The notes under the pieces: generated by a model | The model's database searches: none | What the model saw: the letters and a program-made list of their open reading frames with translations, nothing else | What the model was told of the DNA's origin: nothing | Part shown: in pieces, positions 60,286 through 64,000 of the stretch | Position numbering within the stretch: the stretch's first letter is position 1 | How the letters are laid out: every line of letters begins with the position of its first letter | Program-made: the position numbers and the translations under genes | Source: Psychrobacter sp. JB385 | GTDB lineage: Bacteria; Pseudomonadota; Gammaproteobacteria; Pseudomonadales; Moraxellaceae | NCBI RefSeq assembly: GCF_900163785.1 | Contig: NZ_FUKN01000013.1 | Coordinates: 1-64,000, forward strand | Direction: 5' to 3' | Length of the DNA: 64,000 bases

Positions 60286-60486
60286 GGTGATAGGCTCGCA
60301 GCATTTTTAATAGGCGTTTTTGACAAGCCGACGATTGTAGCACAATGGGTCATCATGATGGCACATGCGTTAAAGGGTAATGCGCACGCCCCAGTTGATT
60401 GATAAAGGAAGAATATAATAATGACAAGCATTTACCTGACAAACATTTGTTGCTACATTAGAGCATTCAGATAGCTGATTTTGATT

Positions 60487-63270
60487 ATGTCACTTTACCA
60501 ACTCAAGTCTCAATTCCAGAATCAGCTGCGCCCCATTAGCGATATGCTGGTCGAGCATCACTGTACCGCAAATCAAGTGACGATCAGCGCGGTCGTATTA
60601 AGTGTGGGTACCGCTTATGTGATTGCGACGCGGGCAGGAGAGAGACCACGTTTATGGTTGTCACTGCCTTTGTCTTTGTTCATGCGTATGGCGCTAAATG
60701 CAATCGATGGCATGATGGCGCGTGAGCATGGACAGGCATCGACAATGGGTGCGGTACTCAATGAAGCAGGCGATCTGGTAGCAGATACGGCATTTTTTAT
60801 CAGCATTTTGCCGCATCTGAATCAGACAACAATATCGACCAATCACACTCATGGCCCTTATCAGCAGCATATTGTCAGTTTATCTTTACTAAGCATCAGT
60901 ACAGAACTGTTGGCAATCGCTAGCAATGTCAGCTTTCGAGAGCGAGCCAATCAAGGGCCACTAGGAAAAAGTGATCGTGCGTTATTGCTTGGGGTGCTTG
61001 GGACGGTAATAGGAATGAAGTTACCGCTCACGCGCTTGAATGCTTGTCTGTTCCCATTGTTCCTCATCTCAGAAGCGTTGCTCATCAAAACATGTCTAAA
61101 CCGCTTACGGTTTATCGCTGAGCTTTATCTGCGAAGTAATCCACCACAACTTCGGTCAAACTCTTTGGGTCATACTAATGACAATGTATTCGAGCAACTG
61201 TCTGCTACAAGAATACAGTTACCTTTAAAGAATGCTTCATCAAGATCAGATAATCTCTCAGAGATAACTCACGCATCGACCCTCCATCATTTGGATATTC
61301 AAACCATGTCTAAGTCTTCAACACCTCACTCTTTTCAGCAGTCGGCATGTAATCAGGCGCTGCCTATTAGCGGCGAAAGCTGTTTTAATGCCTACGATGG
61401 TACGGCGATTTATTACCGTTATTGGTTGACCATGTCGATAGCTGACATAAAATCACAAGCAGCCACTCAGTCATTACGCCAAGTGATTTTATTACACCGT
61501 GGGCATGAACATTCGGGCCGATTGGCAGAGCTTGGTGTGCAGTTTGCAAAGGCAGGTTATCAGGTATTTGCATGGGATGCGCGTGGTAATGGGCGCTCAG
61601 GTGGTATCAAAGATCATGCTGATAGCGTCATAGAGCTTGAACGAGATTTGAATGATTTTGTGCAGTTGGTCAGAGCGCAAACGGGCATAGCTATCGAAGA
61701 CACGTTGATTGTGGCCAGCAGCATAGGGGCTGTGTTAGCAGCAGCATGGGTACATGATTATGCGCCCAATATTCGCGGGATGATATTGGGCACACCTGCG
61801 CTCAATATTCGCTTGTATATGCCGTTTGCCATTCCGACGCTAAAAGTGGCACGAACCTTTGGAATGATGTCTCGCGTAAGCAGTTATGTCAAGGCGCAAG
61901 TGCTCACTCACGATAAGGACGCGCAGGAAGCATATAATGCCGATCCGCTAATATCGAGTAGTATCTCAACGGATTTATTGATTGACACTCACGCCACAGG
62001 GCAGCGTTTGCTCGACGATGCTGCTGCTATCACCGCACCTGTTTTTGTGTTGTGTGCTGGCAAAGATTACGTGGTAGATAAACAAGCTGAGCGTGATTTT
62101 TATGAAGCCATTAATACACCTATCAAGCGCTGGCAGCTATATCCAGACAGCTATCATGCGATTTTTCATGAAAACAATAAAGCGGATGTGTTTGCAGATT
62201 GTCTTGATTTTGCTGAGCAAGTATTTGCAACGTCAGTACAAATACCAGATTTAAATAATGCGCATCTTACCAGTGCCAGCAAGGACAAAGTCGATCGTTT
62301 AGCGATTAAGCCATTTAATCCAAGCTTTGCTATCACACGCTTTGCCATGCAAAAATTTGGTCATGTCAGTCAAGCCATCTCGGCAGGACTTGAACATGGC
62401 TTTGATTCTGGTAGCTCATTGGATCAAGTGTACAGTAATACCCCAAGCGGACGTGGTGGAGTTGGACGTGCCATAGATAAGTTCTATTTAAACAATATTG
62501 GTTGGCAAGGAATTCGAGTAAGACGCGAGCACTTATTAGAATTAGCAGGAGAGGCGATCATGCATCTACAAATGCAAAAAGAGGCTCAAGACGGTCAGCA
62601 TGCCTTTATCTCTGAACAGCCAAACCATGTCCCAAGATCATACACCCCAAAACTATTAGATATTGCGAGTGGTCATGGCGCTTATGTATTTGATTTGCTA
62701 GAAAAGTTTGACAATTTACATGCTGAGCTGCGTGATTATGAAACCCATAATGTACAGGCACTACAATCCAAAGCAGAGCGTTTGAATATGGGCAATCGCG
62801 TGGTAACTTATCAAAAAGATGCGTTTGATAGCAGTAGTTATCATAACAGTGATGCTGATACACTTGCATTTGATATTGCGATTGCGTCAGGAGTGTTTGA
62901 GCTGTTTTCTGATAACACATTACTTGCGACGGCGTTGGCAGGGATGTACGCCAGTCTTCAGGCGGGTGGCTATCTTGTTTATACCAATCAACCTTGGCAT
63001 CCTGAGCAAGAATTTATCAGTAAAACCCTAAACAATCATCGCGGCAGTAGTTGGGTGATGCGTTGCCGCTCACAGGCAGAAATGGATCAATTGGTTGAGC
63101 GTGCAGGTTTTGAGAAAGTATCTATGCGTATCGATAAGTTTGGTATTTTTACGGTGTCATTGGCAAAAAAACCGCTCTCTGCTGATACAAGTGCCGCTGA
63201 CAAAGATAGCGGAGCATCCCTACAAGACGGTAAGACTGAGCCTACTAAGCCTAATGAGAGCCAGCAATGA
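60487..63270 (+). CDS. Fused CDP-alcohol phosphotransferase / alpha-beta hydrolase / methyltransferase
   Basis: The 927-residue protein joins three domains. At 15-200 a CDP-alcohol phosphotransferase motif is seen with two changes: N71-x2-D74-G75...A78-R79-x8-G88-x3-N92-x3-D96, where the first and third aspartates of the classic motif are asparagine. At 305-590 is an alpha/beta hydrolase: S412 in VASSIG, D527 in AGKDYV and H557 in DSYHAIFHE. At 690-905 is a class I methyltransferase with LLDIASGHG at 723-731. It likely builds and remodels a lipid at the inner membrane. Elsewhere these domains are more often separate genes. ATG 60487; TTG 60481 would add two residues. It overlaps the patatin gene by four bases. 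Confidence 0.75.
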   Translation: MSLYQLKSQFQNQLRPISDMLVEHHCTANQVTISAVVLSVGTAYVIATRAGERPRLWLSLPLSLFMRMALNAIDGMMAREHGQASTMGAVLNEAGDLVADTAFFISILPHLNQTTISTNHTHGPYQQHIVSLSLLSISTELLAIASNVSFRERANQGPLGKSDRALLLGVLGTVIGMKLPLTRLNACLFPLFLISEALLIKTCLNRLRFIAELYLRSNPPQLRSNSLGHTNDNVFEQLSATRIQLPLKNASSRSDNLSEITHASTLHHLDIQTMSKSSTPHSFQQSACNQALPISGESCFNAYDGTAIYYRYWLTMSIADIKSQAATQSLRQVILLHRGHEHSGRLAELGVQFAKAGYQVFAWDARGNGRSGGIKDHADSVIELERDLNDFVQLVRAQTGIAIEDTLIVASSIGAVLAAAWVHDYAPNIRGMILGTPALNIRLYMPFAIPTLKVARTFGMMSRVSSYVKAQVLTHDKDAQEAYNADPLISSSISTDLLIDTHATGQRLLDDAAAITAPVFVLCAGKDYVVDKQAERDFYEAINTPIKRWQLYPDSYHAIFHENNKADVFADCLDFAEQVFATSVQIPDLNNAHLTSASKDKVDRLAIKPFNPSFAITRFAMQKFGHVSQAISAGLEHGFDSGSSLDQVYSNTPSGRGGVGRAIDKFYLNNIGWQGIRVRREHLLELAGEAIMHLQMQKEAQDGQHAFISEQPNHVPRSYTPKLLDIASGHGAYVFDLLEKFDNLHAELRDYETHNVQALQSKAERLNMGNRVVTYQKDAFDSSSYHNSDADTLAFDIAIASGVFELFSDNTLLATALAGMYASLQAGGYLVYTNQPWHPEQEFISKTLNNHRGSSWVMRCRSQAEMDQLVERAGFEKVSMRIDKFGIFTVSLAKKPLSADTSAADKDSGASLQDGKTEPTKPNESQQ

Positions 63271-64000
63271 AAACCGAGCACCCTTATGAGCGTGTTCAGC
63301 TTTTTTCTGGTGGTGGTTCGCGCTTTGGGTATTATTTGGGCAGCTATGCCGCGCTGGTTGAGCATGACCTCAAGCCGGACTTAATCATTGGAACTTGCGG
63401 TGGTAGTTTGTCCGCTCTTTTGGTACAGCTTGCGCCTGACCCTATTGCCCTCAAACAGCTTATTGAAAGTCAGGCGCTGTATAAAGTAATTGGCAATATC
63501 ACCCATGTCCCTCCTAATGAGGTTAGCACTCGCCATAAATGGCGTTATGCCAGTCAGGCATTTAACCGTTGGCGTACTTCTCATCTAGGGGTGCGCCAGT
63601 CTGCCAATATGCATGCTGATCTTTTAGAAGAGTTACAGCAGCTGGCTATGTTTCGTATCGAAAACGATAATCAATGGCTTGATGCGTTGATACACTTGGC
63701 AAATGCAAATGAGCAGACAGCAATTACTCCAATGACGCCTGATATTGCGATTATTGCCAGTCGTCTTTATCAAGGGCAAACCGTACAGGCCGCCCTTGGC
63801 CAGCCGCAGCTACAAGAAGTTTTATTTGCGCCGCCACCTTTGGCTCATCGGTATCAGGCTCAGCTAATATCAAGTTCTACTACCGAGCCAACAGCAGGTT
63901 CTACGTTTGATAAGCTCATTTCTCCAGTCAATACACTGGCGCGTACGCGTATTCATCAAAAGGTGGCCGTACTACAAAAATGGGACATAGCCACCGCAGT
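63267..64000 (+). CDS. Patatin-like protein (partial), cysteine at nucleophile position
   Basis: An ATG at 63267 overlaps the fusion gene's stop (ATGA) and the frame stays open to the window end, giving about 244 codons of an incomplete gene. SGGGSRFGYYLGSYAAL is the patatin oxyanion loop (GGGxR). The usual nucleophile GxSxG appears as G42-T43-C44-G45-G46, with cysteine in place of serine. Patatins hydrolyse acyl groups of lipids. The acid residue would lie beyond the edge. The coupling suggests it works with the lipid-modifying fusion. Confidence 0.75.
   Translation, partial: MKTEHPYERVQLFSGGGSRFGYYLGSYAALVEHDLKPDLIIGTCGGSLSALLVQLAPDPIALKQLIESQALYKVIGNITHVPPNEVSTRHKWRYASQAFNRWRTSHLGVRQSANMHADLLEELQQLAMFRIENDNQWLDALIHLANANEQTAITPMTPDIAIIASRLYQGQTVQAALGQPQLQEVLFAPPPLAHRYQAQLISSSTTEPTAGSTFDKLISPVNTLARTRIHQKVAVLQKWDIATA

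Follow-up and report, generated by a model that had tools for sequence, protein, structure and literature searches.

The closest described counterparts of the gene analysed here are ynbA and ynbC of Escherichia coli, members of the ynbABCD cluster. Overproduction of YnbB raises the level of the glycolipid MPIase in E. coli, and YnbB was unable to replace CdsA, a result given in the source as "data not shown" (PMC6362211; this and all other papers are cited here from excerpts). YnbD, as a PAP2 phosphatase, gave no rescue of strains deficient in phosphatidylglycerol phosphate (PGP) phosphatase or in undecaprenyl-pyrophosphate phosphatase in the experiments excerpted (PMC7413402). Insertion into ynbC made a group II intron protein diffuse, disruptants of this kind accumulate polyphosphate, polar effects being possible (PMC2435150), and ynbA is stated to be activated by BglJ-RcsB and called, with reference to other work, a predicted diacylglycerol cholinephosphotransferase (PMC12871917); it is also mentioned as down-regulated upon plutonium exposure (PMC10134817). 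No demonstrated reaction for YnbA or YnbC was found among the literature matches listed for ynbA to ynbD and the operon, a coverage from which subscription journals are mostly absent. Here we analyse a gene of Psychrobacter sp. JB385 in which these two genes are joined, situated at 60487..63270 on the forward strand of a stretch of 64,000 nucleotides (hereafter the window; contig NZ_FUKN01000013.1, positions 1 to 64,000).

The open reading frame (ORF) starts with the ATG at 60487, ends with the TGA that closes at 63270 and encodes 927 amino acids (aa); an in-frame TTG lies at 60481, two codons 5' of the ATG. The preliminary description of this DNA, made from the letters, had proposed a single polypeptide of three domains, and the frame indeed contains three Pfam domains that score above their cut-offs: CDP-OH_P_transf (PF01066, aa 27-172, 25.7 bits against 22, within the range of the cytidine diphosphate (CDP)-alcohol phosphotransferase superfamily), Hydrolase_4 (PF12146, aa 331-563, 187.8 bits against 27) and Methyltransf_20 (PF12147, aa 574-895, 295.6 bits against 21). 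The last two domains, with the catalytic triad of the hydrolase present, place the C-terminal part in the YnbC family. By its sequence, the gene is a joined ynbA and ynbC, i.e. a combination of two known families.

The E. coli record (locus L027) has the same domains, the same pair of asparagines in the motif discussed below and a YnbB gene in the cluster, with identities of 37% for YnbA and 40-41% for YnbC. The Psychrobacter locus differs from it in the fusion itself, in the replacement of YnbD by a patatin-like gene and a short-chain dehydrogenase/reductase (SDR) gene, in the convergent orientation of its YnbB gene, and in the acidic residue (E93) that follows the second asparagine, where the E. 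coli protein has Lys. A tblastn search against plasmid records matched 35 records, with the YnbA and YnbC parts as neighbouring genes; the E. coli record among them contains ynbA, ynbB, ynbC and ynbD, the two parts are annotated in Citrobacter, Burkholderia and Rhizobium as "CDP-alcohol phosphatidyltransferase" and "bifunctional alpha/beta hydrolase/class I SAM-dependent methyltransferase", and in Fusobacterium they are unannotated frames. Identity to the window protein ranges from 36 to 40% for six YnbA sequences and from 38 to 43% for five YnbC sequences. Judged from the comparisons below, what looks like a defect in the motif of the YnbA domain marks out a clade of putative CDP-lipid transferases with partner enzymes of their own, and we consider this more interesting than the fusion.

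The asparagine motif and its distribution

The four motif aspartates (D1 to D4) are held to be essential in the superfamily. In one phosphatidylserine (PS) synthase they bind two metal ions, with D1 and D3 contacting both (PMC8633023), and for phosphatidylinositol phosphate (PIP) synthase it has been proposed that D4 acts as the base (PMC4634129, PMC6506517). The window protein reads N71-x2-D74-G75-x2-A78-R79-x8-G88-x3-N92-x3-D96-x3-D100 (60697..60786, forward strand), so that, as the preliminary description had noticed, D1 and D3 are replaced by N71 (60697-60699) and N92 (60760-60762), with D74, D96 and D100 being retained. It thus lacks the four-aspartate motif of the superfamily and is filed here under a divergent clade rather than as a canonical member. 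It matches, through R67, N71, D74, N92, E93, D96 and D100, a signature that we define as R-x3-N-x2-DG...G-x3-N-acid-x2-D-x3-D and refer to as N/N, in distinction from the D/D proteins, which have Asp at both places.

Relatives were collected mainly through a YnbC profile, of whose 574 confirmed candidates the best 80 loci were taken. These lean to close relatives, include 15 loci from Psychrobacter, a duplicate pair (L048/L049) and a pair with identical scores (L024/L051), and were chosen without the use of the YnbA motif, although the YnbA domain inside them was picked by a profile built from N/N sequences, which is a mild bias. In an alignment of 115 YnbA domains from loci found via YnbC or the whole protein, with repeats included (L001 and L002 are both the window gene), D1 is Asn in 113 of the 113 rows with a letter (two are gapped) and D3 is Asn in 112 of 114 (one is gapped), the remaining two being Ser and His; D2, D4 and the position of D100 are Asp in every letter.

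A broader collection of 260 loci yielded 136 distinct N/N and 52 distinct D/D motif strings and no mixture of N and D, where "distinct" refers to the motif string plus 10 residues on each side, many entries are close relatives, and the pattern allows only N or D at both places; the D/D loci that were deliberately fetched are all from Pseudomonadota. The asparagines are accompanied by further residues: Arg four positions before D1 occurs in 135 of the 136 N/N strings (the exception is Ser in L061) and in none of the 52 D/D strings, an acidic residue directly after D3 in 135 of 136 (the exception is the Lys of E. coli) versus 0 of 52, and Asp four positions after D4 in 136 of 136 versus 3 of 52. 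The joint gain of the acid after the second Asn and of the arginine corresponding to R67, together with the retention of D4, suggests a rebuilt site.

A control set of 52 loci with PF01066 matches (L115-L166), which covers best and weak listed matches rather than all of them, from the own genome and others of a 36-genome class sample, comprises 45 D/D loci, 4 N/N loci and 3 without the motif, with one spurious extra match; the 4 N/N cases are the window gene, one YnbA and two genes of a sister group. These 45 of 52 loci lead us to reject the Asn pattern as a feature of the whole superfamily, and the stand-alone relatives that carry the pair, E. coli YnbA included, show that it is no peculiarity of the fusion. 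What might have been peculiar to the fused protein, a point for which the preliminary description had looked to stand-alone homologues, turned out to be fixed throughout a clade and to serve as its signature.

When 299 genomes of the phylum were searched with a profile and the loci of the best matches were read, scores of at least 170 bits comprised 28 N/N proteins of the YnbA type (own included) and one with Ala/Asn. Between 50 and 82 bits there were 16 N/N proteins of the sister group, with the motif RLxxNxxDGxVA...N-acid-x-PDR-x-x-D, and from 51 bits downward D/D proteins, which make up 5 of the 20 mid-range loci that were read; the kinds overlap near 50 bits (D/D 51.0, N/N 50.1), and matches under about 39 bits were left unread. 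In two trees, built from 83 and 77 chosen rows, the N/N sequences lie on one side of one branch, with a support of 99/97 in the first and of 96/89 in the second, from which six long D/D branches were removed and in which the two trait residues were masked. According to the first tree, the sister group also includes YnbC-linked YnbA-like genes of Verrucomicrobiota, Planctomycetota and one deltaproteobacterial metagenome-assembled genome (MAG). The simplest reading of these data is that the change to Asn arose once, as a block, and was then kept.

The N/N proteins are also distinguished by their company. Among the 18 sister-group loci found without YnbC (17 have no match to the YnbC profile and one, L220, has a weak match of 94 bits), a YnbB-type synthase and an acyltransferase are each present in 18/18, whereas among 20 D/D control loci, some represented by stretches shorter than 14 kb, the YnbB profile matches in 2 (212 and 66 bits) and the acyltransferase profile in 1 (31 bits). 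Because of this difference in the synthase, the N/N transferase appears to travel with its own CDP-lipid supply. The clearest exception among the 20 controls is L242 (genome G058), where a D/D CDP-alcohol phosphotransferase lies near the YnbB-type synthase scoring 212 bits.

Two kinds of deviant genes were encountered on the margins of the clade. One relative of YnbA (L198 in genome G317, 1498-2727) has Ala at D1, Asn at D3 and Glu four positions after D4, with no YnbC, YnbB or acyltransferase match within its 3.6 kb stretch. In Xanthomonas/Lysobacter loci a second, weak YnbA-like gene (L058 11953-12645, L064 8123-9070 and L082 11379-12665) directly precedes acyltransferase and YnbB genes, and two of the three combine Asn at D1 with Ser or His at D3.

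Fold, acceptor site and mode of action of the YnbA domain

The YnbA-type domain (aa 1-225; 60487..61161, forward strand) was modelled by AlphaFold2 with a pLDDT of 93.1. The model supports the assignment to CDP-alcohol phosphotransferases made in the preliminary description: its top Foldseek match is 6h5a, and a comparison by VIA-align with PIP synthase 5d91 gives a Z of 19.9 and a root-mean-square deviation (rmsd) of 2.9 over 198 aligned residues, i.e. the fold of the superfamily. With the mycobacterial and Renibacterium PIP synthases the domain shares the fold (Z 18-20), D2, D4, the Asp four positions after D4 and two phosphate-binding arginines. In the mycobacterial enzyme these arginines, R155 and R195, bind inositol phosphate (PMC4634129); they align with R164 (60976..60978) and R206 (61102..61104) of the forward-strand gene, in columns where all 114 and 108 of 109 rows with a letter, respectively, have Arg. 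Apart from Asn at D1 and D3, the window protein departs from the mycobacterial PIP synthase in other acceptor residues, S132, K135, R94 and R137 being replaced by A143, S146, L97 and V148 in alignments read by eye, and it falls short of the NCBIfam cut-offs, scoring 46.9 bits against 170 for PIP synthase (NF045883) and 47.8 bits against 180 for archaetidylinositol phosphate synthase. Since the two arginines are kept while the equivalents of the other four residues differ, the acceptor is expected to bear a phosphate and to be something other than inositol phosphate, which, to judge from these residues, is probably not the substrate.

We tentatively favour, with a probability of roughly 45%, the reading that the YnbA domain is an active CDP-lipid transferase with a rebuilt site, which serves a dedicated lipid pathway and is fused to the downstream lipase and methyltransferase. 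According to this proposal, YnbB, encoded close by, would make the CDP-lipid; the metal site of the YnbA domain, with two neutral Asn ligands, would probably hold one metal ion, or metal ions placed differently; and the domain would move the phosphatidyl group onto a phosphate-bearing acceptor, with D96 acting as the base. The fused lipase would then remove or shift an acyl chain, after which the product would be methylated by the methyltransferase of the fusion, the intermediate being passed on inside one membrane-tethered protein. The order of the reactions and the channelling are pure conjecture on our part. Catalysis rather than decay is indicated by the conservation of the whole rebuilt motif in the 136 distinct N/N strings, with D2 and D4 being Asp in every aligned letter, and our confidence in the proposal derives from the motif together with its gene neighbourhood.

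Several observations weigh against it. All changes of the motif aspartates in one PS synthase, MjPSS, lowered or abolished activity, and Mg did not restore its D62N mutant, in which Asn takes the place of D3 (PMC8633023); because the mutants lose activity, a plain double exchange of Asp for Asn is expected to be fatal to the canonical mechanism, and the YnbA site could be dead. The set of pathway genes identified by sequence in the own genome is not full: within 7 kb flanks, 15 of 15 Psychrobacter loci lack both YnbD and the acyltransferase, and a single YnbD query against the own genome brought up nothing better than a marginal match interrupted by many stops. More widely, no YnbB lies within the retrieved stretch of 14 of the 80 YnbC loci, and outside Psychrobacter the fusion is rare (1 of 65 YnbC loci).

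A dead site would make the YnbA domain a pseudoenzyme, whose task would be to bind a phospholipid, be it a CDP-lipid or another, and to anchor it or offer it to the lipase and the methyltransferase. Such a role would fit the loss of two metal-binding carboxylates and the behaviour of the MjPSS mutant, and we nevertheless regard it as unlikely: no aligned letter departs from Asp at D2, D4 and D100, the phosphate-binding arginines are almost always kept, and the stand-alone N/N group collected without YnbC keeps the motif and lies near a CDP-diacylglycerol (CDP-DAG) synthase gene in all 18 loci, as expected of a catalyst. Equally improbable in our view is an ordinary CDP-alcohol phosphotransferase, in which the Asn ligands hold Mg adequately and the product is a known lipid, e.g. 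phosphatidylinositol phosphate or PGP. PIP synthase is the best solved match both by sequence and by fold, and its phosphate-binding arginines are retained; however, the scores far under the family cut-offs and the different residues at the other four acceptor positions speak against it, and so do, as far as the excerpts go, the failures of E. coli YnbD to replace PGP phosphatase (PMC7413402) and of YnbB to replace CdsA (PMC6362211). Still less credit is given to a branch of MPIase-type glycolipid synthesis, in which the N/N site would allow the CDP-lipid to be attacked by a phosphate instead of an alcohol, with a sugar-PP-DAG as the product. The rise of MPIase upon YnbB overproduction points in this direction, as does the formation of GlcNAc-PP-DAG from N-acetylglucosamine (GlcNAc)-1-phosphate by CdsA-rich membranes and partially purified CdsA8; the same published work, however, gives this step to CdsA/YnbB itself and, in the part excerpted, found MPIase not significantly changed by the deletion of ynbB (PMC6362211). 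Moreover, the protein retains D96, presumably the base where an alcohol attacks, and the lipase and methyltransferase would be left without a role.

A broader and slightly less secure proposal is that the N/N proteins may constitute, by virtue of a rebuilt catalytic site, a class of CDP-lipid transferases in their own right, which would work with an acyltransferase and a YnbB-type CDP-lipid synthase dedicated to them. The phospholipid pathway thus formed would run in parallel in many bacteria, including E. coli, with the donor and/or the product undescribed, and its transferase, lipase and methyltransferase steps would be fused in Psychrobacter into one membrane enzyme. A clade that has replaced two of the four aspartates in a coordinated way would exemplify, in nature, a different metal mechanism or else a repurposed fold, and its presence in E. 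coli K-12 makes the question easy to approach there.

The fusion and its hydrolase and methyltransferase parts

The YnbA and YnbC parts are joined by a linker of aa 226-296 (61162..61374, forward strand). In a first sample of 57 genomes, 36 of them from the genus of the window and the own genome included, the fusion protein is present in 23 of the 36 genus genomes, as a single stop-free frame in 21 and broken in two (G003 and G035). The best piece of the genus copies is 66-79% identical to the window protein, and the stop-to-stop frames of the intact copies range from 826 to 1027 aa. A second sample, of 149 family genomes with 31 matching at 1e-20, shares eight matching genus genomes with the first; here the single-frame fusion was found in 20 of 20 matching genus genomes (of the 12 new ones, five doubtful ones were read out). 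In two other genera of the family, ynbA and ynbC are separate, which might suggest that a sequencing error merged two genes in the window, the case that the preliminary description had set against itself. The 21 of 23 and 20 of 20 single-frame copies with a linker, even if the samples partly overlap, rule this out, and we assign an artefact a negligible probability. In those two genera the genes are adjacent in all 11 matching genomes (4/4 and 7/7). A fusion in the latter of these two genera (genome G493), hinted at by a frame of 807 aa, was rejected, as the stretch reads as two separate frames.

Among the named Psychrobacter loci both whole parts share one frame in 14 of 15, the exception, L051, being broken inside the hydrolase. 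Breaks inside the hydrolase domain of the fusion also occur in L024, of the same genus, and in L028, on a plasmid of Moraxella osloensis; that of L028 is an in-frame stop, those of L024 and L051 are frame changes, and both halves remain similar in sequence. Of the 65 YnbC-profile loci from outside Psychrobacter, one is fused, namely L095 from a MAG of the Acetobacteraceae, in which the two parts share a stop-free frame of 1045 aa and are joined by a short linker, fusions having been looked for among the loci gathered in this analysis. The fusion alone is a lineage-level variant. As the same two proteins have been fused separately in two lineages, it can be argued that YnbA and YnbC act together; ynbABCD points to a dedicated lipid pathway, and the fusion tells which two of its steps belong together.

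The hydrolase (aa 297-575; 61375..62211, forward strand) has the intact Ser-Asp-His triad seen in the preliminary description, S412 (61720-61722), D527 (62065-62067) and H557 (62155-62157), in columns that are invariant over 44 YnbC sequences. It shares the triad and the fold with human and mycobacterial monoglyceride lipases (Z 35-36; for mycobacterial 7ozm, Z 36.1 and rmsd 2.1 over 275 aligned residues), from which it differs in being joined to a methyltransferase and a membrane domain; the identity is 21-23%. Because the fold is of the monoglyceride-lipase type, the domain more likely removes an acyl chain, or transfers one, than trims a headgroup. Thus, from the earlier suggestion that a headgroup is made, trimmed and methylated, a multi-step lipid pathway remains plausible, given the lipid gene clusters in which the relatives occur, with the trimming step probably to be replaced by an acyl step. 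The Methyltransf_20 domain (aa 575-895; 62209..63171, forward strand; PF12147) has an intact core and contains at aa 725 a DIASGHG loop, which we take, by analogy to class I methyltransferases, to be of the kind that binds S-adenosylmethionine. The fold search with the YnbC model returned matches of the hydrolase domain, and the methyltransferase is supported by weak sequence matches to solved methyltransferases.

Gene neighbourhood and partner enzymes

The fusion gene is followed by a patatin-like gene (63267..64000, forward strand; PF01734), which overlaps it by 4 bases and extends past the end of the window (395 aa in the genome), then by an SDR gene and by a convergent gene for a YnbB-type CDP-DAG synthase. 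The latter lies about 2.3 kb past the stop codon of the fusion and keeps a signature like that of CDP-DAG synthases, so that the YnbA domain has the linkage typical of its family, with ynbC fused to it and ynbB near. The three fused steps are plausible as part of a pathway, as proposed in the preliminary description, and the adjoining patatin-like, SDR and YnbB-type genes indicate that they are not the whole of it. Elsewhere the own genome encodes a canonical CdsA, two D/D CDP-alcohol phosphotransferases (PgsA-like and PssA-like) and three other PAP2 proteins; as the ordinary PgsA-like, PssA-like and CdsA proteins are present, the fusion would not represent the housekeeping lipid route.

The 80 YnbC-profile loci contain a YnbA-like gene in every case, YnbB in 66, YnbD in 58, an acyltransferase in 39, and a patatin and an SDR in 18 each. 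The combination of patatin, SDR and YnbB is found in 13 of the 15 Psychrobacter loci, whereas the neighbours of the relatives in other bacteria include an acyltransferase gene and one for a PAP2/dual-specificity phosphatase. In Vibrio xiamenensis (L048) separate ynbA and ynbC genes are surrounded by patatin, SDR, YnbB and YnbD, and this ynb-type cluster with patatin and SDR occurs on two contigs of the one genome (L048 and L049). A Pseudanabaena plasmid (L031) carries YnbA, YnbB, an acyltransferase and a methyltransferase annotated without the hydrolase part, in a group of genes that adjoins nif genes.

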